Of a stretch of DNA of 64,000 bases, positions 46,631-53,379 are shown piece after piece. Position 1 is the first letter of the stretch. Every line of letters begins with the position of its first letter. The notes below the pieces were generated by a model that was given only the letters and a program-made list of their open reading frames with translations, made no database searches and was not told where the DNA came from. The translations under genes were made by a program, and so were the position numbers. Source of the DNA: an uncultured Bryobacteraceae bacterium (GTDB lineage: Bacteria; Acidobacteriota; Terriglobia; Bryobacterales; Bryobacteraceae); NCBI GenBank assembly GCA_937924525.1, contig CALDSU010000005.1, positions 124,001 to 188,000 of the forward strand, given 5' to 3'.

Positions 46631-48199
46631 TTGCTGATTGTGGGAATCGGCGGCGTGCTTCGCAGCGCGTCCGCCGCGGTCCTGAAGGACGGCGAGATCG
46701 CTGCCGCCATCGAAGAGAACAAGCTGAGCCGGGAGCACCGTCCGGGAGAATTGCCGCTCCACGCGATTCAACAATGCCTGCGGATCGCGGGCGCGCCGGC
46801 CGGAAAGGTGGATATCGTGGCCCTGGCCCGGCCCATCTCGCCGATCGGCAGCCAGCTTCACCTGCAATTACGGACGATGTTTCCCGCCAGCCGGGTGGTG
46901 GTGGTGGAGCATCACGCCGCGCACGCCGCCGCCGCGTACTTCGCCTCCCCGTTCGCATCGGCGACCGTGCTCACGCTGGACCGCTCCGGCGATTTTCGCT
47001 GCGGCGCCCGCTGGAACGCCGAGGGCAACCAGCTTACTTTGGACCAGGAACTGTATTTCCCGGATTCGTTTGGGGAACTCTACGGGCGGGTGACGGAGCT
47101 GCTGGGGTATCAGTCCGGCGCCGACGAACACAAGGTCCAGTGGCTTTCGGCCGCCGGGGATGACCGCTACCGCAGCCTGTTCTCGGAGATCCTGGGCGTT
47201 GGCCGGGGACTGCGCTCCGACCGCAGCTTCTTTACCGCGGACCGGCTCGCCCACGGCGGTTTCAGTGCTAAGTTCTTCGAAAGGTTAGGGATCGATGACG
47301 GCGCCGCCATCCCCGCCGCTCTCCGCGAGCCCCTCGCCGCAGGGCTGCAACGCGCCATGGAAGACGCGGTGCTCGAGTTGGCCGGGTCCGGCCGCCCGCT
47401 GTGCCTGGGGGGCGGGCTGGCGTTCAACGCCCTGCTGGTGGCGGCTCTCGAACAGTCCGGGCGCTTCCCCGGCGTGTTTGTCCAGCCTAATGCAGGCAAT
47501 GCGGGGAACGCGCTCGGCGTGCTGTACCACGTCTGGAATGTGGTGCTCGGCGAGTCTTCCCGGCCCTCCATCGGCAATTTCTGCCTCGGCCCCAGCTATT
47601 CGGCGGAAGAAATCAAGCAAGTGATCGAGAACTGCAAGCTGCGGTTTCGTTACCTGCTGACCACCGACGAACTGGTCGACACGGCGGTGGCCGAACTCGG
47701 CGACCACAAGATTGTCGCCTGGATGCACGGGCGCATGGAGTTCGGTCCGCGAGCCTTGGGCAACCGCAGCATTCTGGCTTCTCCCCTGGACCCGTATTCC
47801 ACGGAAAACCTCAACGCGTTCATCAAGCACCGCGAGCCTTTCCGCAAGTTCGCCGCTTCGGTGCCCGCCGAGGTGGCGGGGGAGTATTTTGAGGTCGGTC
47901 CCAACGCGCGGTTTCTGGCCACGGTGGGCAAGGTGCGCCCCGCCTATCGCGACCTGTTTCGGGCGGCGATTCTCGGCGCGGACTGGGTTCGCGTGCACAC
48001 GGTTTCCGAGCAGGACAACCCGCTCTACTGGCGGCTGCTTCACGCCGCAGGCCGCCGGACCGGCCTGCCGGTCCTCTACAACACCTCCTTCAACCTGTTC
48101 GGTTACCCGCTGGTCTGCACGCCCCGCGACGCAGTACGGAGTTTCTATTCGAGCGGCATCGACACGATGTTCGTCGGTAATTTCCTGTTACAGAAATGA
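46631..48199 (+). CDS. NodU/HypF-type carbamoyltransferase
   Basis: 522 residues from TTG at 46631 with GGAGGG upstream. The N-terminal Kae1-like ATP-grasping domain begins LIVGIGGVLRSASAAVLKDG, with the metal His pair HHAAH (94-98) and TLDRSGDFRCG; from about residue 330 the C-terminal carbamoyltransferase domain has HGRMEFGPRALGNRSILASP and YNTSFNLFGYPLV. Relatives (NodU, TobZ, GdmN) move a carbamoyl group from carbamoyl phosphate to a hydroxyl of a sugar or antibiotic through carbamoyl-adenylate. Acceptor unknown. No YrdC domain is present. The next gene, 57 bases on, is a free acylphosphatase. Confidence 0.87.
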   Translation: MLIVGIGGVLRSASAAVLKDGEIAAAIEENKLSREHRPGELPLHAIQQCLRIAGAPAGKVDIVALARPISPIGSQLHLQLRTMFPASRVVVVEHHAAHAAAAYFASPFASATVLTLDRSGDFRCGARWNAEGNQLTLDQELYFPDSFGELYGRVTELLGYQSGADEHKVQWLSAAGDDRYRSLFSEILGVGRGLRSDRSFFTADRLAHGGFSAKFFERLGIDDGAAIPAALREPLAAGLQRAMEDAVLELAGSGRPLCLGGGLAFNALLVAALEQSGRFPGVFVQPNAGNAGNALGVLYHVWNVVLGESSRPSIGNFCLGPSYSAEEIKQVIENCKLRFRYLLTTDELVDTAVAELGDHKIVAWMHGRMEFGPRALGNRSILASPLDPYSTENLNAFIKHREPFRKFAASVPAEVAGEYFEVGPNARFLATVGKVRPAYRDLFRAAILGADWVRVHTVSEQDNPLYWRLLHAAGRRTGLPVLYNTSFNLFGYPLVCTPRDAVRSFYSSGIDTMFVGNFLLQK

Positions 48200-48256: not shown

Positions 48257-48523
48257 ATGCAGGCGAGACGGTTCTTCGTCCGGGGCCGGGTGCAAGGAGT
48301 GGGGTATCGGTATTTCGTCCAGCGGGAGGCGGAGGCTCGCCGCCTGACCGGCTACGCGCGAAATCTGGCCGACGGGCGCGTGGAAGTCTATGCCGCCGGC
48401 GAACCGCCGGCCCTTGCCGAACTGGCCGGACTGCTCTGGAAGGGCCCGTACCTGGCCGAGGTGCGTGACGTGGCGGAAGAGGAGGCCGCGGTGGAATCGC
48501 GCGCCTCGTTCCGCATTCTCTGA
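48257..48523 (+). CDS. acyP: acylphosphatase
   Basis: 88 residues from ATG at 48257; the extra upstream codons in the open frame are not needed. The active-site Arg and loop are in GRVQGVGYRYFVQREAEARRL, and the Asn is in YARNLADGRVEVYA, matching the family consensus. It hydrolyses acyl phosphates such as acetyl or carbamoyl phosphate, in the cytosol. Its neighbour is the carbamoyltransferase; HypF fuses the same two kinds of domain. It converges with the histidine kinase gene. Confidence 0.92.
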   Translation: MQARRFFVRGRVQGVGYRYFVQREAEARRLTGYARNLADGRVEVYAAGEPPALAELAGLLWKGPYLAEVRDVAEEEAAVESRASFRIL

Positions 48524-48537
48524 GGCGCTCTGGGAAT

Positions 48538-50010
48538 TCAGGCCCGGACGGTGTCGGCGCTGCGGGCGCTGTCCCCCTCCGCGGCCAGCGGCAAATACAC
48601 GGTGAAACGCGTCCCCGCGCCTGGCCGGCTGTGGACCTCGACGTGCCCCCCGTGCGCCCGCGCGATCCATTGCACAAAGCTCAATCCCAAGCCCAGTCCC
48701 TTCTCGCGCGCGACCGCCGTACTGCTCACGCGGTAAAAGCGGGTGAAAATATGGGGCAGCGCTTCTTCCGGGATGCCGCACCCGGTATCCTCCACCTCCA
48801 GACGGATCTGGTCGCCCTCCCGGGCGAGGCTGACCCGGACCCGTCCCCCCGCCGGAGTGAACTTGATCGCATTGCTCAGCAGGTTGGAAAGCATCCGCTC
48901 GAATTGGACCCGGTCCACCTCGGCCAGACATTCCTGCGGCAGAGACTGCTCCAGACGGACGCTGGCTTCCTCGGCGGGCAGCTCGAACTGTTCCAGAATC
49001 CCGCGCACGGAGGCTGTCAGGTCGGCCGGGGCGCGCTGGAGAACCACTTGTCCGGTTTCCGCTTGCGCCAGTTGCAGGAGCGCGCGCACAATCTGCGTCA
49101 GCCTTTCAACGTCATCCAGCGAAGCGATGATCGCTTCGCGCAGCGCATCGGCGTCCGGCGCCGTCATCAGCGCGATTTCCAACTGGCCGCGGAGCGCCGT
49201 CAGCGGCGTGCGCAACTCGTGGGAGACATCCGCGGAAAACTGCTGGATCTGGCGAAAACTGGTTTCCAGCCGCTCCATCATTCCGTTGAAGGTGACAATG
49301 AGATTGTCGAGTTCGTCGGCCGCACCGCGCGTGGGGATGCGGAGGCTCAAGTTCGAACCGGAAATCCGCCCGGCCGCCGCCGCCAGAGAAACCACTGGCA
49401 GCAGCGCGCGCCCCGCCAGCAGCCAGCCCAGGAAGCACACCAGCGCGATCAGTAGCGGCGCGGCCAACAGGTACCCTTGGACGAACTGCTCGACAATCCG
49501 CCGGCTGTCGCCCAGCGGGCGTCCGATCGAAACATAATACGGCCGGCGGCTCTCGTCGCCCGAGTGTAAGACGCCGGAGCGCAGCAGGTACTCCTGGCCG
49601 TCCCTCGTCTCGCGTACGCTCCAGCGCGTCCCCTCAGTCGCCAGCACGTCCCGGATCTGCCCGGGCGGGTCCGGACCCAGCGTCCGGTACAGACCCGACA
49701 GCGCCAGGTGCGTCCCGGCGCCGTCGGTGACAAAGAGAATTCTTTGAATACGCGCCACCAGGAAGGTTTCCTCGCGATCCTGCCGGTCGTGCACCCAGTA
49801 CAATCTGCCGTTCTCGATACGCAGCAGCGCTTTCAGCGAACCCCATTCCTGGTCGAGCACCTCCCGCAGCGAAGTGTCCAGGCTGGTGGAAAGACTGCGC
49901 TGGAAGACGGCGCCGATGACGCCCAACAGGAGCGCGAAGAACAGCGCGTAGCTGGCCGCCAGCCGAAACCGCAGGCCGCGCGTGATGCGGCGGATGGACT
50001 CCCCGTTCAC
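48538..50010 (-). CDS. sensor histidine kinase
   Basis: 490 residues from GTG at 50010. Two membrane helices (RLAASYALFFALLLGVIGAVF and LLAAPLLIALVCFLGWLLAG) flank a periplasmic loop of about 140 residues. HAMP follows (ALLPVVSLAAAAGRISGSNL), then the phosphorylated His in FSADVSHELRTPLTALRG. The ATPase domain has the N box NLLSNAIKF, G1 DTGCGIPEE and G2 GLGLGLSFV. It pairs with the OmpR-type regulator directly upstream (10-base gap), and both follow the cytochrome gene, so the signal sensed may relate to the periplasmic dehydrogenase. That link is inference. Confidence 0.92.
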   Translation of the reverse strand: MNGESIRRITRGLRFRLAASYALFFALLLGVIGAVFQRSLSTSLDTSLREVLDQEWGSLKALLRIENGRLYWVHDRQDREETFLVARIQRILFVTDGAGTHLALSGLYRTLGPDPPGQIRDVLATEGTRWSVRETRDGQEYLLRSGVLHSGDESRRPYYVSIGRPLGDSRRIVEQFVQGYLLAAPLLIALVCFLGWLLAGRALLPVVSLAAAAGRISGSNLSLRIPTRGAADELDNLIVTFNGMMERLETSFRQIQQFSADVSHELRTPLTALRGQLEIALMTAPDADALREAIIASLDDVERLTQIVRALLQLAQAETGQVVLQRAPADLTASVRGILEQFELPAEEASVRLEQSLPQECLAEVDRVQFERMLSNLLSNAIKFTPAGGRVRVSLAREGDQIRLEVEDTGCGIPEEALPHIFTRFYRVSSTAVAREKGLGLGLSFVQWIARAHGGHVEVHSRPGAGTRFTVYLPLAAEGDSARSADTVRA

Positions 50011-50020
50011 CGCCGGCCTG

Positions 50021-50770
50021 TCACGCGGACGGATCGGCAGGCTTCTCCGCCCTGGCGTCCGCCGGACTGTCGATGAGATAGCCGATGCCGCGCACCGTAT
50101 GAATCAGTTTCACCTTCCACTTGTCGTCGATTTTGCTGCGAAGGTGGCGGATGTAGACGTCGACGATGTTCGTCAATCCGTCATAGTCCATCTCCCAGAC
50201 ATGCTCGACGATCATCGTGCGGCTCAGCGGCCGGCCGCGGTTGCGCATCAGGAATTCCAGAATGCCGAATTCCTTCGGCGCCAGTTCGATCAGTTCCCCG
50301 GCGCGCCAGACCTTGCGGCGAATGGTGTCCATCACCAGATCGCCCACCGTCAATTTGTCCTGGAGCGGGAGTCCGCGCCGGAGCAGGACGCGGACTCGGG
50401 CCAGCAGTTCGACGAAGGCAAAGGGCTTCGTCATGTAATCGTCCGCGCCGAGTTCCAGTCCTTTCACCTTGTCGTCGACGGCGGCTCTGGCGCTCAGAAT
50501 CAGGACGGGAGGCCCGCCCTTGCGATTGCGCAGTTTCTCGAGCACCGTCAGTCCGTCCGCGTCGGGCAGCATGAGGTCCAGAATCACCAGGTCGTAATCG
50601 GCTTGATGCAGCGCGGCGAGCGCCTTGGCGGCATCGTCCGCCACGTCGACCGCGTAGCCGGCGCCCTCGAGGCCGCGACTCAACACGTCCGCGATCCGTT
50701 GTTCGTCTTCCACTAGCAGCAGACGGTTCCGGACGCCGTCGCGCCCGGAAACCTCATTGGCGGGGTTCAT
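50021..50770 (-). CDS. OmpR/PhoB-family response regulator
   Basis: 249 residues from ATG at 50770; the longer frame lies antisense to the cytochrome gene's neighbours and is rejected. Receiver landmarks: LLLVEDEQR, phospho-acceptor VILDLMLPDADG, a switch Ser/Ala in LILSARA and the conserved Lys in MTKPFAF. The C-terminal winged helix has LAPKEFGILEFLMRNRGRPLSR and VDVYIRHLRSKID. It binds DNA when phosphorylated by the downstream kinase. Its start overlaps the cytochrome gene end by 17 bases, so it is co-translated with the dehydrogenase operon. Confidence 0.92.
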   Translation of the reverse strand: MNPANEVSGRDGVRNRLLLVEDEQRIADVLSRGLEGAGYAVDVADDAAKALAALHQADYDLVILDLMLPDADGLTVLEKLRNRKGGPPVLILSARAAVDDKVKGLELGADDYMTKPFAFVELLARVRVLLRRGLPLQDKLTVGDLVMDTIRRKVWRAGELIELAPKEFGILEFLMRNRGRPLSRTMIVEHVWEMDYDGLTNIVDVYIRHLRSKIDDKWKVKLIHTVRGIGYLIDSPADARAEKPADPSA

Positions 50771-51245
50771 GGCAATAGTTGCAGTCAAGGCTGGCCTTCC
50801 TTGCCCGATGGCAGTCCATGCAGGCCCCCATCGAAATATCTCTCTCCTTCCAGAGTTTATCCCTTTCCCCAACCGGACCGTGACAGCCTTCGCAGGCGCC
50901 GCCGGCTTCCAGGTGCGCCTGATGGCTGAAGAACACATAGCTGGGAATTTGATAGACCCTGACCCAGGGCACGGGACGCTTGTCCCGGTGAAAAGACGCC
51001 AGTTTCTCAATCGCGGGGCTGCCCGTCTTCACGCTTGCGTGACACGACATGCACTTGGCCGTGGCGGGGAAAGTCATCAATTCTCCCGGGTCCGGCATCG
51101 TGTGGCAGTCGGAACACTTCAACCCCAACGCGACGTGTTGCCGGTGGCTATAAGGAATGGGCTGCTCGGGCGCGGTTTCCGGTCCGGAGGCGGCCCAGAC
51201 CGCCGCCGCGGCGGCCAGTAGGATTCCACGCCTCGCCCGGTTCAA
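50754..51245 (-). CDS. penta-haem c-type cytochrome (class III/c7-like)
   Basis: 163 residues from TTG at 51245, which overlaps the upstream stop as TTGA; the longer upstream frame is not needed. A signal or anchor helix ([15 protein letters not shown]) is followed by five CxxCH haem sites at residues 44-48, 65-69, 118-122, 142-146 and 155-159. Extra His residues at 34, 37, 86, 108 and 111 could be distal ligands, as in bis-His cytochromes. [18 protein letters not shown] between haems 2 and 3 is like the periplasmic subunits of quinone-linked complexes. It may take electrons from the GMC oxidoreductase; that is inference from operon order. Confidence 0.87.
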
Positions 51246-52807
51246 AGCTCGCCCCGCTTTTTCTGCTCCACCAGGTATTCGCAAGCCCGCATCGTGAGCG
51301 CCAGCATCGTCAGCGTGGGATTCTGCACGCCTCCGGAAACGAAGGCGCTGCCATCCACGACAAACAGGTTCTTGACGTCGTGCGACTGGTTATAGCGGTT
51401 CAGCACACTCGTCCGGGGATCGGCGCCCATCCGGCAGGTTCCCAATTCATGGATGCTTTCTCCGGGCGGAACCGGCTCGGCGTGTTTGCCCAGAATCTCA
51501 AAGCCCGCGCCGCGGCAGAGTTGCTCGGCTACTTCCATCGAGTCGCGCGCCATGCGGAACTCGTTCTCGGTGTAACGCTGGGTAATGTGGAGCACGGGGA
51601 TGCCCCAGGCGTCGCGCACGCCGGGATGGATGCGGACGTGATTTTCGCGGCGGGGCAGCACTTCGCCCATGGTGGTCATGGCGAAACCGGCGCCTTCCAG
51701 TTCCTGCATTTCCTTGCGCAGCGCTTCGCCATACAGCGGCACGTAGCGCGGGTGTGGGGTGTGGCCGCTGCCGAAGTCGTAGGCGTAGCCGCGGATGAAG
51801 TCTTTCTCGCGTTTGGCCAGGTTGCGGAAGCGGGGAATGTAACCGCCTCCGCCCATCAGGCTCCGGCCACCCTTGCCGCCGCGCGCCTCGGGCACCACGC
51901 ATTGCACCACGTTCTTCACGTAGAACTGGTCGAACAGGTAGTGTCCCAGCACGCCGCTCGAGTTGGCGATGCCGGAGTTGAGCAGAATGCGGGTGGATTC
52001 CAGGCACGAGGCGCCGAGCACGATTACCTTGGCGCGCACATGAAAGTCCCGCTTGGAACGCCGGTCGACGAAGTGCGCGCCGTTGGCGAGTCCCGTGGCG
52101 CGATCCAGGGTGATCTCGCGCACGATGGCGTTGGGCACGATGCGCAGGTGGCCCGAGGCCAGGGCTTCCGGCAGCAGCAGATTCACCGAACTGGCCAGCG
52201 TGCCGGTCGCCCGCCGGGGCTTGGTGGTCGGCACCCCCAGCCGCTTCGCCGAGGCAATAAACCGCTGCACGGATCCGCTGTCCCGCGAGTCGTCCGGCAG
52301 GAGATTGCCGTCCGGCATTTGCGGCCAGCCCTCGTTTCTCCCGGCGACCCGGAACAACGGCTCGACGCGGTCGTAATAAGGAGCCAGCTCCTGGTACGAG
52401 ATCGGCCAGTTGTCTCCGAACCCGTCGTGATCGCGGCACTTGAATTCGTAATCGCTCAAGCGCCACGAGGCGCGGCCCCACAGCAGGGTCTTGCCGCCGA
52501 TCTTGCGAATGCGGACCCAGTAGTAGGGGGCGCCCGCGTCGTAGGTGTACGGATTCTGCTTTTCGTCCGCCCACACGTTGGCGTTGAACTCATTGGCTTG
52601 CGTGACGTGCGGGAAGCGGCCCGGCTGGCCGAAGCCGCGGTAGGGCAGGTCGGAGACCGGACGCAGCGAGCGGTCTTTCTCCAGGTCCACCGGCGGGCCC
52701 GCGTCCAGCATCAGGCACTTCACGCCCAGGCGCGTGAGCGTGTAGGCGGCCATGCCACCCGTGGCGCCGGAACCGATGATCAGCACGTCGTGGAGTTCCA
52801 TGGTCAT
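51242..52807 (-). CDS. GMC family oxidoreductase (gluconate-dehydrogenase large-subunit type)
   Basis: 521 residues from ATG at 52807 (ATGA overlap with the upstream gene). The FAD site is [21 protein letters not shown]. The C-terminal GMC motif is [35 protein letters not shown] and [21 protein letters not shown], with the His/Asn active-site pair. No Tat or Sec signal is seen; such large subunits are exported with the Tat-bearing small subunit, here encoded upstream. The substrate is probably a sugar or sugar acid. The operon order (subunit 3, GMC, cytochrome) is that of membrane gluconate 2-dehydrogenase, with a multi-haem cytochrome in place of the usual one. Confidence 0.87.
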
Positions 52808-53379
52808 TCCGCCGCGTGCCAGTACAAGCCGAGGCCCGAGGCGCCGCGCCGCCGACCGGACAGCGCCCGCGCCTGCGCGCGGGAGTTCGCCACGGCCTGC
52901 CAGAAGTCGTCCTTGGCGGCCAGCAGGAACCGGGCCAGGGGATCGTGCGGCGCCGAGCGGGTCCAGGCCTGCCGGAGCGGCGCCAGCAACGGCGCGGCCT
53001 CCTCGTCGCTCACGGCCGCGAACGCCTTTCCCCAGCGCTGTCGCGCCGCCGCGTGCAGCGCGCGCAGCCCCTCGCGATAAAGCGTTTGCCGTTCCGCGGG
53101 CGACTGGCCGATGAGGAAGTCCAGAAACAATGCGGCTTCCGCCTCCACCGCGCCGGGCAGACCCTCCGCGGACGGGATCAACAGGCGTCCCAAGCGCTCG
53201 AGCGCGGCGAACTCGGTCTCGTCAAAAAAGCGCCGCACGCCCGCGGCCGCGGCCTCCGGTGAGTCGAATGCCAGCTTCACGGCGGTCTCGGCGGGTGGCG
53301 GCGCGGTCTGCGCGGGAGCGGGCGCGGCCCAGGCGGCCGGCAAGCTCAGCGCGCTTCCCAGGATCGTCCGGCGTTTCAT
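52804..53379 (-). CDS. gluconate 2-dehydrogenase subunit 3-like protein
   Basis: 191 residues with a Tat-like signal ([17 protein letters not shown]). The conserved subunit 3 text is visible: [22 protein letters not shown] and [12 protein letters not shown], followed by [16 protein letters not shown]. This subunit is needed for assembly and Tat export of the GMC large subunit. First gene of the five-gene operon, divergent from the ceramidase-like gene with 55 bases between starts. Confidence 0.85.

Follow-up and report, generated by a model that had tools for sequence, protein, structure and literature searches.

Gluconate 2-dehydrogenase belongs, with fructose dehydrogenase and the glucose dehydrogenase of Burkholderia cepacia, to the three-subunit FAD dehydrogenases with direct electron transfer. 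The latter two enzymes combine a GMC flavoprotein with a small subunit of the hitchhiker kind and a multihaem c-type cytochrome. For the B. cepacia enzyme, a three-haem subunit and the use of Cys212, Cys218 and Cys222 for a 3Fe-4S cluster are described in the excerpt of PMC6719666. In the ped cluster of Pseudomonas, dehydrogenases of the periplasm are grouped with their cytochrome and a two-component pair; in the excerpt of PMC12997753, these are PQQ dehydrogenases, the cytochrome c550 PedF and PedS2-PedR2.

Here we analyzed five genes in a window of 64,000 nucleotides (the whole stretch of DNA under study) from an uncultured Bryobacteraceae bacterium. The row has the GMC flavoprotein, small subunit and multihaem cytochrome of the three-subunit enzymes, but its predicted cytochrome resembles ActA and has five CxxCH motifs close together in place of three haems, its catalytic subunit lacks the 3Fe-4S cysteine cluster, and a two-component pair follows. 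The ped cluster, as excerpted in PMC12997753, differs from the row in enzyme class and cytochrome, and in its LuxR-type regulator and rare-earth cue.

Gene content and junctions

All five genes lie on the minus strand, in the order subunit 3, GMC flavoenzyme, pentahaem cytochrome, response regulator and kinase, at the positions given in the initial annotation. The spacings of 4, 4, 17 and -10 listed there also agree with the sequence, the last being a gap of 10 bases between regulator and kinase. Subunit 3 and GMC share four bases (ATGA, read from the sequence), as do GMC and cytochrome (TTGA), the latter junction requiring that the cytochrome start at the TTG at 51245; extended upstream of this codon, its open reading frame reaches 51284. 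The regulator starts inside the cytochrome gene, with an overlap of 17 bases. For each of the five open reading frames, other genomes contain relatives (39-79 % identity) that keep the same order and strand, and the frames are therefore not chance. Spacing and gene order suggest that the five genes are transcribed as one unit.

The enzyme and its cytochrome

Subunit 3 (52804..53379, minus strand, 191 aa), the hitchhiker of a secreted FAD dehydrogenase, belongs to the PF13618 family (54.2 bits, cut-off 23.4), and its N-terminus, MKRRTILG, resembles a Tat signal by eye. Five solved chains were listed as matches to it, the best with an E of 0.4, and these look like chance. The GMC catalytic subunit (51242..52807, minus strand, 521 aa) exceeds the cut-offs of both PF05199 (81.2 bits) and PF00732 (36.8 bits); its nearest solved chains are those of fructose dehydrogenase (8k6k/7w2j, 126 bits) and glucose dehydrogenase (6a2u), and no signal peptide was seen by eye. 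The pattern C-x(3-8)-C-x(2-5)-C was found in none of 44 GMC rows from cytochrome-linked loci, the window's included (at least six genes are present twice in this set), and is present in L002, a cytochrome-free GMC paralogue of the same genome. Two aligned blocks are separated by 24 residues in the window GMC versus 45 in fructose dehydrogenase. By these sequence criteria, the 3Fe-4S cysteine cluster known from glucose dehydrogenase is missing from the window GMC. Among secreted FAD sugar dehydrogenases, the enzyme half of the row is a variant form, common in the order.

The cytochrome (50754..51245, minus strand, 163 aa from the TTG) begins with a hydrophobic stretch, as judged by eye, and carries CxxCH motifs at residues 44, 65, 118, 142 and 155, all five within 116 residues. 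It shares these five motifs and its c7/c3-type family matches (PF14522, PF02085) with QrcA and with ActA of alternative complex III (ACIII). ACIII chains were matched strongly (8k9e, 123 bits; 6f0k, 6lod, 6btm), and the score against the QrcA model was 76.9, below the cut-off of 180. These matches point to a protein related to ActA and not to the three-haem subunit. Unlike ActA of ACIII, it sits beside a dehydrogenase, with no other Act genes in the window's row; an ACIII-like operon, in which an ActB-like gene comes after the five-haem gene, is found elsewhere in the same genome (L274).

The initial annotation had proposed that a five-haem cytochrome replaces the usual triple single-haem one, and a five-haem protein does occupy the place of the three-haem subunit in the glucose dehydrogenase of the PMC6719666 excerpt. 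The regulatory pair is indeed tightly joined to this cytochrome. The GMC-cytochrome pairing is not special to this locus: GMC lies directly upstream in 41 of the 72 cytochrome rows in our tree, a set collected by likeness to the window's cytochrome. This tree was built without 14 same-genome duplicates and without identical rows, and it keeps 7 of the 36 distant loci L048-L083. Relatives of the cytochrome also adjoin PQQ and FMN dehydrogenases. The occurrence of one kind of small cytochrome beside GMC, PQQ and FMN dehydrogenases suggests an interchangeable wire.

The kinase and regulator

The pair consists of an OmpR-family response regulator (50021..50770, minus strand, 249 aa; PF00072, PF00486) and a sensor histidine kinase (48538..50010, minus strand, 490 aa), in which an N-terminal sensor region between two long helices is followed by HAMP, HisKA and HATPase_c. 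With an OmpR-type regulator and a HAMP-HisKA kinase, and in sequence, the pair is near the CusSR/CzcRS-type systems; however, the window's row has no metal gene and the sensor no conserved metal-type ligands. The kinase exceeds the TIGR01386 cut-off (309.3 versus 292.55 bits), and the regulator is under that of TIGR01387 (259 versus 279.2 bits). The AlphaFold model of the kinase (pLDDT 82.7, pTM 0.47) matches solved kinase cores, its core being similar to that of CusS (7zp0), and none specific to the sensor stood out among the best 50 of 1391 matches.

The window regulator is 66-79 % identical to regulators adjoining kinase orthologues. The mean identity of the sensor to its orthologues is 34 %, versus 38 % between random orthologue pairs; judged by these alignments, the divergence of the window sensor exceeds the usual level only slightly, and the sensor is hardly specialized. 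No Cys, His or Met occurs among the sensor positions more than 80 % conserved in 113 orthologues, and the kinase sensor has no haem motif. The aromatic and acidic residues W56, W72, D75, D78 and Y108 are kept.

Distribution of the pair

Kinase orthologues were detected in 202 of the 257 genomes of the order, and genomes of this acidobacterial group usually gave a single good match; since six candidates were scored per genome, paralogue numbers may be underestimates. The pair is a conserved regulator of the group, sometimes found near respiratory and redox genes. We retrieved neighbourhoods for 113 of the 201 other genomes with a kinase match. At 106 of these 113 loci (104 if two ACIII neighbours, L219 and L230, are set aside), the gene directly upstream on that strand is not a cytochrome of this kind. 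In 111 loci, the upstream position is shared among 77 distinct gene families. The kinase pair is not enzyme-specific. The initial annotation had named orthology to an unrelated stand-alone pair as evidence against its reading, and these 106 loci, together with a sensor little more divergent than usual, largely supply that evidence.

The five-gene row recurs in full in L168 and L170, and in L169 as far as the contig end, which falls inside GMC; four further loci (L164-L167) have cytochrome, regulator and kinase alone. Two other loci, L219 and L230, have the kinase orthologue head-to-head with an ACIII-type operon, in which a five-haem gene comes first and an ActB-like gene next. The linked clade retains the cytochrome-regulator junction in seven of eight loci, GMC being missing in four of the seven. 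In G116, a congener of G117 that belongs to this clade, the pair occurs but the cytochrome does not accompany it (L241). By automatic calls, the family most often found upstream is that of the ActA-type cytochromes (7 of 111 loci), a count biased upward because the seven linked loci were retrieved on search lists that already showed the adjacency. On the trees, ActA-type cytochromes take the upstream position at three points, versus 0.05-0.08 separate placements expected by a rough, post hoc estimate assuming ~5,000 genes and 3-5 cytochromes per genome. The proposal that sensing is linked to electron flow thus keeps some ground from these three places, but most orthologue loci speak against it.

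A gapped-word search of 96 regions upstream of the regulator revealed no clear regulator box. TAAGCTGA was present in 15 of the 96, versus 0.4 expected from shuffles. In 13 of these 15 regions, it stops 4-6 bases short of the start codon; it was therefore set aside as a box and interpreted as a promoter element, the transcript being leaderless. The remaining enriched words were G+C-rich and weak.

Origin of the linkage

We compared gene trees for signs of one or several joinings. RpoB (matched at threshold in 28 of 30 genomes; the tree is without G103 and the linked genome G216) rejects a single clade of the window and the linked genomes, with G116, G123 and G124 (p-AU 2.3e-5). The cytochrome nearest to the window's is that of G103. 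The GMC tree, from which L006, L110 and L169 were omitted for their shortness and in which some genes still occur twice, rejects one clade of the window, L168 and L170 (p 0.011), and does not reject one that includes L011 and L095 (p 0.105). In a 39-row kinase-regulator tree, the window is grouped with its RpoB relatives, in their F5-type clade (support 94, not starred). In a 114-row tree it falls beside L188 and L244 (support 90), neither of which is its RpoB relative, so its place there is unsure. Kinase-regulator trees are compatible with a single origin of the linkage (p-AU 0.417 and 0.13 in two tests). Collectively, the RpoB tree and, with less force, the GMC tree speak for the genes having been joined separately in the lineage of the window, and against a single ancient linkage, which the kinase-regulator tree allows.

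Discussion

We consider it an even call that the row specifies a dehydrogenase that oxidizes sugars or sugar acids in the periplasm and has an electron wire of its own, and that a two-component pair conserved in the lineage was joined to it. By homology, subunit 3 would take the GMC flavoprotein out via Tat, and FAD would accept two electrons from the substrate. Because the GMC subunit has no 3Fe-4S relay, electrons would then go directly into the ActA-like cytochrome and on to the respiratory chain; the cytochrome probably empties the secreted sugar-oxidizing enzyme of electrons. Gene order further suggests that the pair, transcribed with the other three genes, could tune expression of the electron branch and of itself to a periplasmic or membrane cue. 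A link of the pair with ActA-type electron transfer is plausible, and its recurrence beside such a cytochrome in more than one lineage makes the regulatory link worth testing.

The adjacency may mean less than this. Operon drift, in which the group's general regulator landed behind the cytochrome by chance and is co-transcribed with no regulatory bond to the enzyme, is a reading to which we give appreciable but minority weight: the 106 loci without the cytochrome directly upstream, the varied upstream families, the hardly specialized sensor and the pair of G116 all agree with it. The same cytochrome type in three tree places, set against the post hoc chance estimate, and the junction retained across the linked clade, often without GMC, do not. 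A stronger proposal, which we consider rather unlikely, is that ActA-type multihaem electron transfer has in this pair its dedicated regulator, tracking the state of the periplasmic wire through cytochrome contact or the quinone pool, and controlling ActA-like dehydrogenase branches that stand alone as well as, in some genomes, ACIII, with the genes repeatedly brought together by selection.

Two readings give the kinase a chemical cue. It might detect the sugar or sugar acid and induce the dehydrogenase, much as catabolic operons are controlled by regulators encoded beside them; the close linkage to the enzyme, seen here and again in three other genomes, and the retained aromatic and acidic sensor residues, would suit this, but orthologues occur where no GMC was found beside the pair, including the four cytochrome-only loci, and we judge it improbable. 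A CusS/CzcS-type response to copper or another metal, coupling cytochrome supply to metal, seems very improbable. Although the kinase passes the NCBIfam heavy-metal sensor kinase cut-off, has a CusS-like core and, in L219 and L230, starts ~3.8 kb from a protein that by eye resembles an NRAMP metal transporter and lies behind another two-component pair, the regulator falls below the matching model's cut-off, the sensor has no conserved Cys, His or Met, and the row contains no metal gene.

To our knowledge, little is known about sugar oxidation outside the cell membrane by soil and groundwater acidobacteria. Silence in the open-licence papers searched is weak evidence, and we do not claim the row as unpublished. 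If the electron path is as proposed, a GMC enzyme that has no iron-sulphur relay and is connected to an ACIII-family cytochrome would be a second solution beside the direct-electron-transfer enzymes used in glucose sensors. The conserved sensor pair beside this wire in several lineages would be a testable candidate for matching respiration to electron supply.

A five-gene row with a flavoenzyme, a pentahaem cytochrome and a two-component pair

In the window's genome (5.52 Mb, 21 contigs), five minus-strand genes form a row: subunit 3 (52804-53379), the GMC flavoenzyme catalytic subunit (51242-52807), a five-haem cytochrome (50754-51245), a response regulator (50021-50770) and, last, a histidine kinase (48538-50010). 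Read from the sequence, the first two junctions are ATGA and TTGA; the third is an overlap of 17 bases and the last a gap of 10. The initial annotation was accurate as to order and tight spacing. Convergent with the kinase gene, on the plus strand, are genes for a carbamoyltransferase (46631-48199, TTG start in the ORF listing) and an acylphosphatase (48257-48523).

Subunit 3 belongs to Pfam family PF13618 and, judged by eye, starts with a Tat-like signal. No signal of its own was seen on the GMC protein, which would fit co-export with subunit 3; the catalytic subunit of B. cepacia glucose dehydrogenase is described in PMC6719666 as exported along with its small subunit. Among solved structures, the GMC protein is closest to fructose dehydrogenase (126 bits), followed by glucose dehydrogenase (84 bits). 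In the latter, electrons travel through a 3Fe-4S cluster at the protein surface, with three cysteines as its ligands (PMC6719666). A 3Fe-4S-type cysteine pattern was found in none of the 44 GMC rows from cytochrome-linked loci, the window's among them (some genes occur twice in the set), and the fructose dehydrogenase alignment breaks at the cysteine-cluster region, which has 24 residues in the window's protein versus 45 in fructose dehydrogenase. The pattern is present in the genome's other subunit 3-GMC pair, on contig 8. This second pair comprises L276 3641-4327 and the GMC paralogue L002, and the 10 kb retrieved there showed no CxxCH-bearing gene.

As the initial annotation pointed out, the row differs from three-haem FAD dehydrogenases in its five-haem cytochrome, which matches ActA of alternative complex III (ACIII; 8k9e, 123 bits; also 6f0k, 6lod and 6btm). 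The five haems of ActA form a wire of about 45 Å, according to the part available of PMC5928083. The enzyme probably works in the periplasm, where it would oxidise a sugar or sugar acid and feed the pentahaem wire directly. Cytochrome matches occur in 252 of 257 genomes of the order Bryobacterales, a count that will include ACIII subunits. Elsewhere in the window's genome, an ACIII-like operon (L274) has a five-haem gene followed by one for an ActB-like protein, so called for its fused molybdopterin-type and Fe-S parts, with QrcB and QrcC matches below cut-offs; ActB itself gave no hit in the profile libraries searched.

Neighbours of the cytochrome relatives

Among the 72 rows kept in the cytochrome tree, GMC lies directly upstream of the cytochrome in 41 (37 without and 4 with a regulator downstream), a PQQ dehydrogenase beside it in six (including L033, L036, L037 and L038), an FMN-dependent dehydrogenase downstream in three (L008, L022 and L024) and a regulator-kinase pair without GMC in four, while 18 have none of these neighbours; Pfam confirmed the family call for one PQQ and one FMN example. 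Given these different dehydrogenases, the ActA-like cytochrome seems to be an electron acceptor that can be exchanged between enzymes. No two-component pair adjoins the GMC-cytochrome genes in 24 named loci, in some of which the contig ends soon after the cytochrome; the closest such pair, in L035, lies some 2.5 kb off. A few neighbours would suit a role in sugar or sugar-acid metabolism: enolase-superfamily proteins (L021 and L034), a lactonase-family protein (L029) and an AraC regulator (L020). Others, a luciferase-like protein (L007) and a ureide-permease match (L016), give no substrate hint.

The regulator-kinase pair across the order

The kinase search, in which six candidates were scored per genome, gave matches with an E-value of at most 1e-60 in 202 of 257 genomes, usually a single match in each. 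Besides the window's genome, 201 thus carry an orthologue, and its surroundings were fetched from 113 of them. An ActA-type cytochrome lies directly upstream on the same strand in 7/113 loci, a biased rate, as these seven were fetched since the search lists already placed the genes adjacent. Four have the cytochrome-regulator-kinase row (L164-L167), and L168-L170 also have subunit 3 and GMC, the L169 contig ending inside GMC. Of 114 loci, counting the window (which has no STAS-domain gene there), 40 have a STAS-domain gene next after the kinase and 18 a gene for a small secreted-looking protein; a NuoI-type ferredoxin family, named from one member, is nearby in 23. A STAS protein, a CoA-disulphide-reductase-like flavoprotein, a thioredoxin-like protein and the NuoI-type ferredoxin recur as a redox row after the kinase (L165 2979-7340, L160, L170). 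We also noted TAAGCTGA ahead of the regulator gene in 15 of 96 loci (L157, L161 and L190 among them). In 13 of these it ends 4-6 bases 5´ of the start codon, and it looks like a -10 element of leaderless transcripts.

In L219 and L230, from one genus, the kinase has no regulator upstream; facing it head-to-head is a five-haem gene, with an ActB-like gene next in line (L219 by profile scan, L230 by its likeness to L219). These ACIII neighbours are a third place of linkage. An NRAMP-like transporter, recognized by eye, lies further along in both.

Single or repeated joining

A tree of kinase and regulator with 114 rows unites the seven linked loci and L241, a pair without the cytochrome, in a clade with support 100; the window falls outside it, at the tip of a long branch (0.71), beside L188 and L244 (support 90). 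A single joining, with the window grouped with the linked clade, was not rejected by these proteins (p-AU 0.417; 0.13 in a 39-row set); the 39-row tree itself places the window in the F5-type clade, that of pairs from its RpoB relatives (support 94, not starred). In the RpoB tree (28 of 30 genomes), the window's genome and eight others form a 100/100 clade, and in all eight the fetched pair is unlinked; a single clade of the window and the linked genera is rejected (p-AU 2.3e-5). For GMC, a clade made up of the window, L168 and L170 is rejected (p 0.011), though with L011 and L095 included the grouping is no longer rejected (p 0.105). The closest partner of the window's cytochrome in its tree is L004 (support 82), where no regulator adjoins the cytochrome. 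Taken together, the trees and the L004 pairing favour, short of proof, an independent joining of pair and cytochrome in the window's lineage. As 111 kinase loci have 77 distinct upstream families (a rough count), 0.05-0.08 placements beside an ActA-type cytochrome are expected by chance versus two or three seen; the probability of at least two is 0.001-0.003 and of at least three 2e-5 to 7e-5, in a post hoc estimate with assumed gene numbers.

Sensing and regulation

Judged from the orthologue alignment, direct redox sensing by the kinase lacks support: its sensor has no CxxCH motif and no conserved Cys, His or Met; the best conserved residues include W56, W72, D75, D78, G99 and Y108. The AlphaFold model (pLDDT 82.7, pTM 0.47) has a kinase core similar to those of HK853 and CusS; of the matches listed with the model as query, none stood out as specific to the sensor. 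The initial suggestion that sensing is linked to electron flow is weakened by stand-alone orthologues of the pair but partly revived by the repeated linkage, and a regulatory link between pair and enzyme is possible. We read the pair as a group-wide regulator, attached here to an electron branch that it probably controls.
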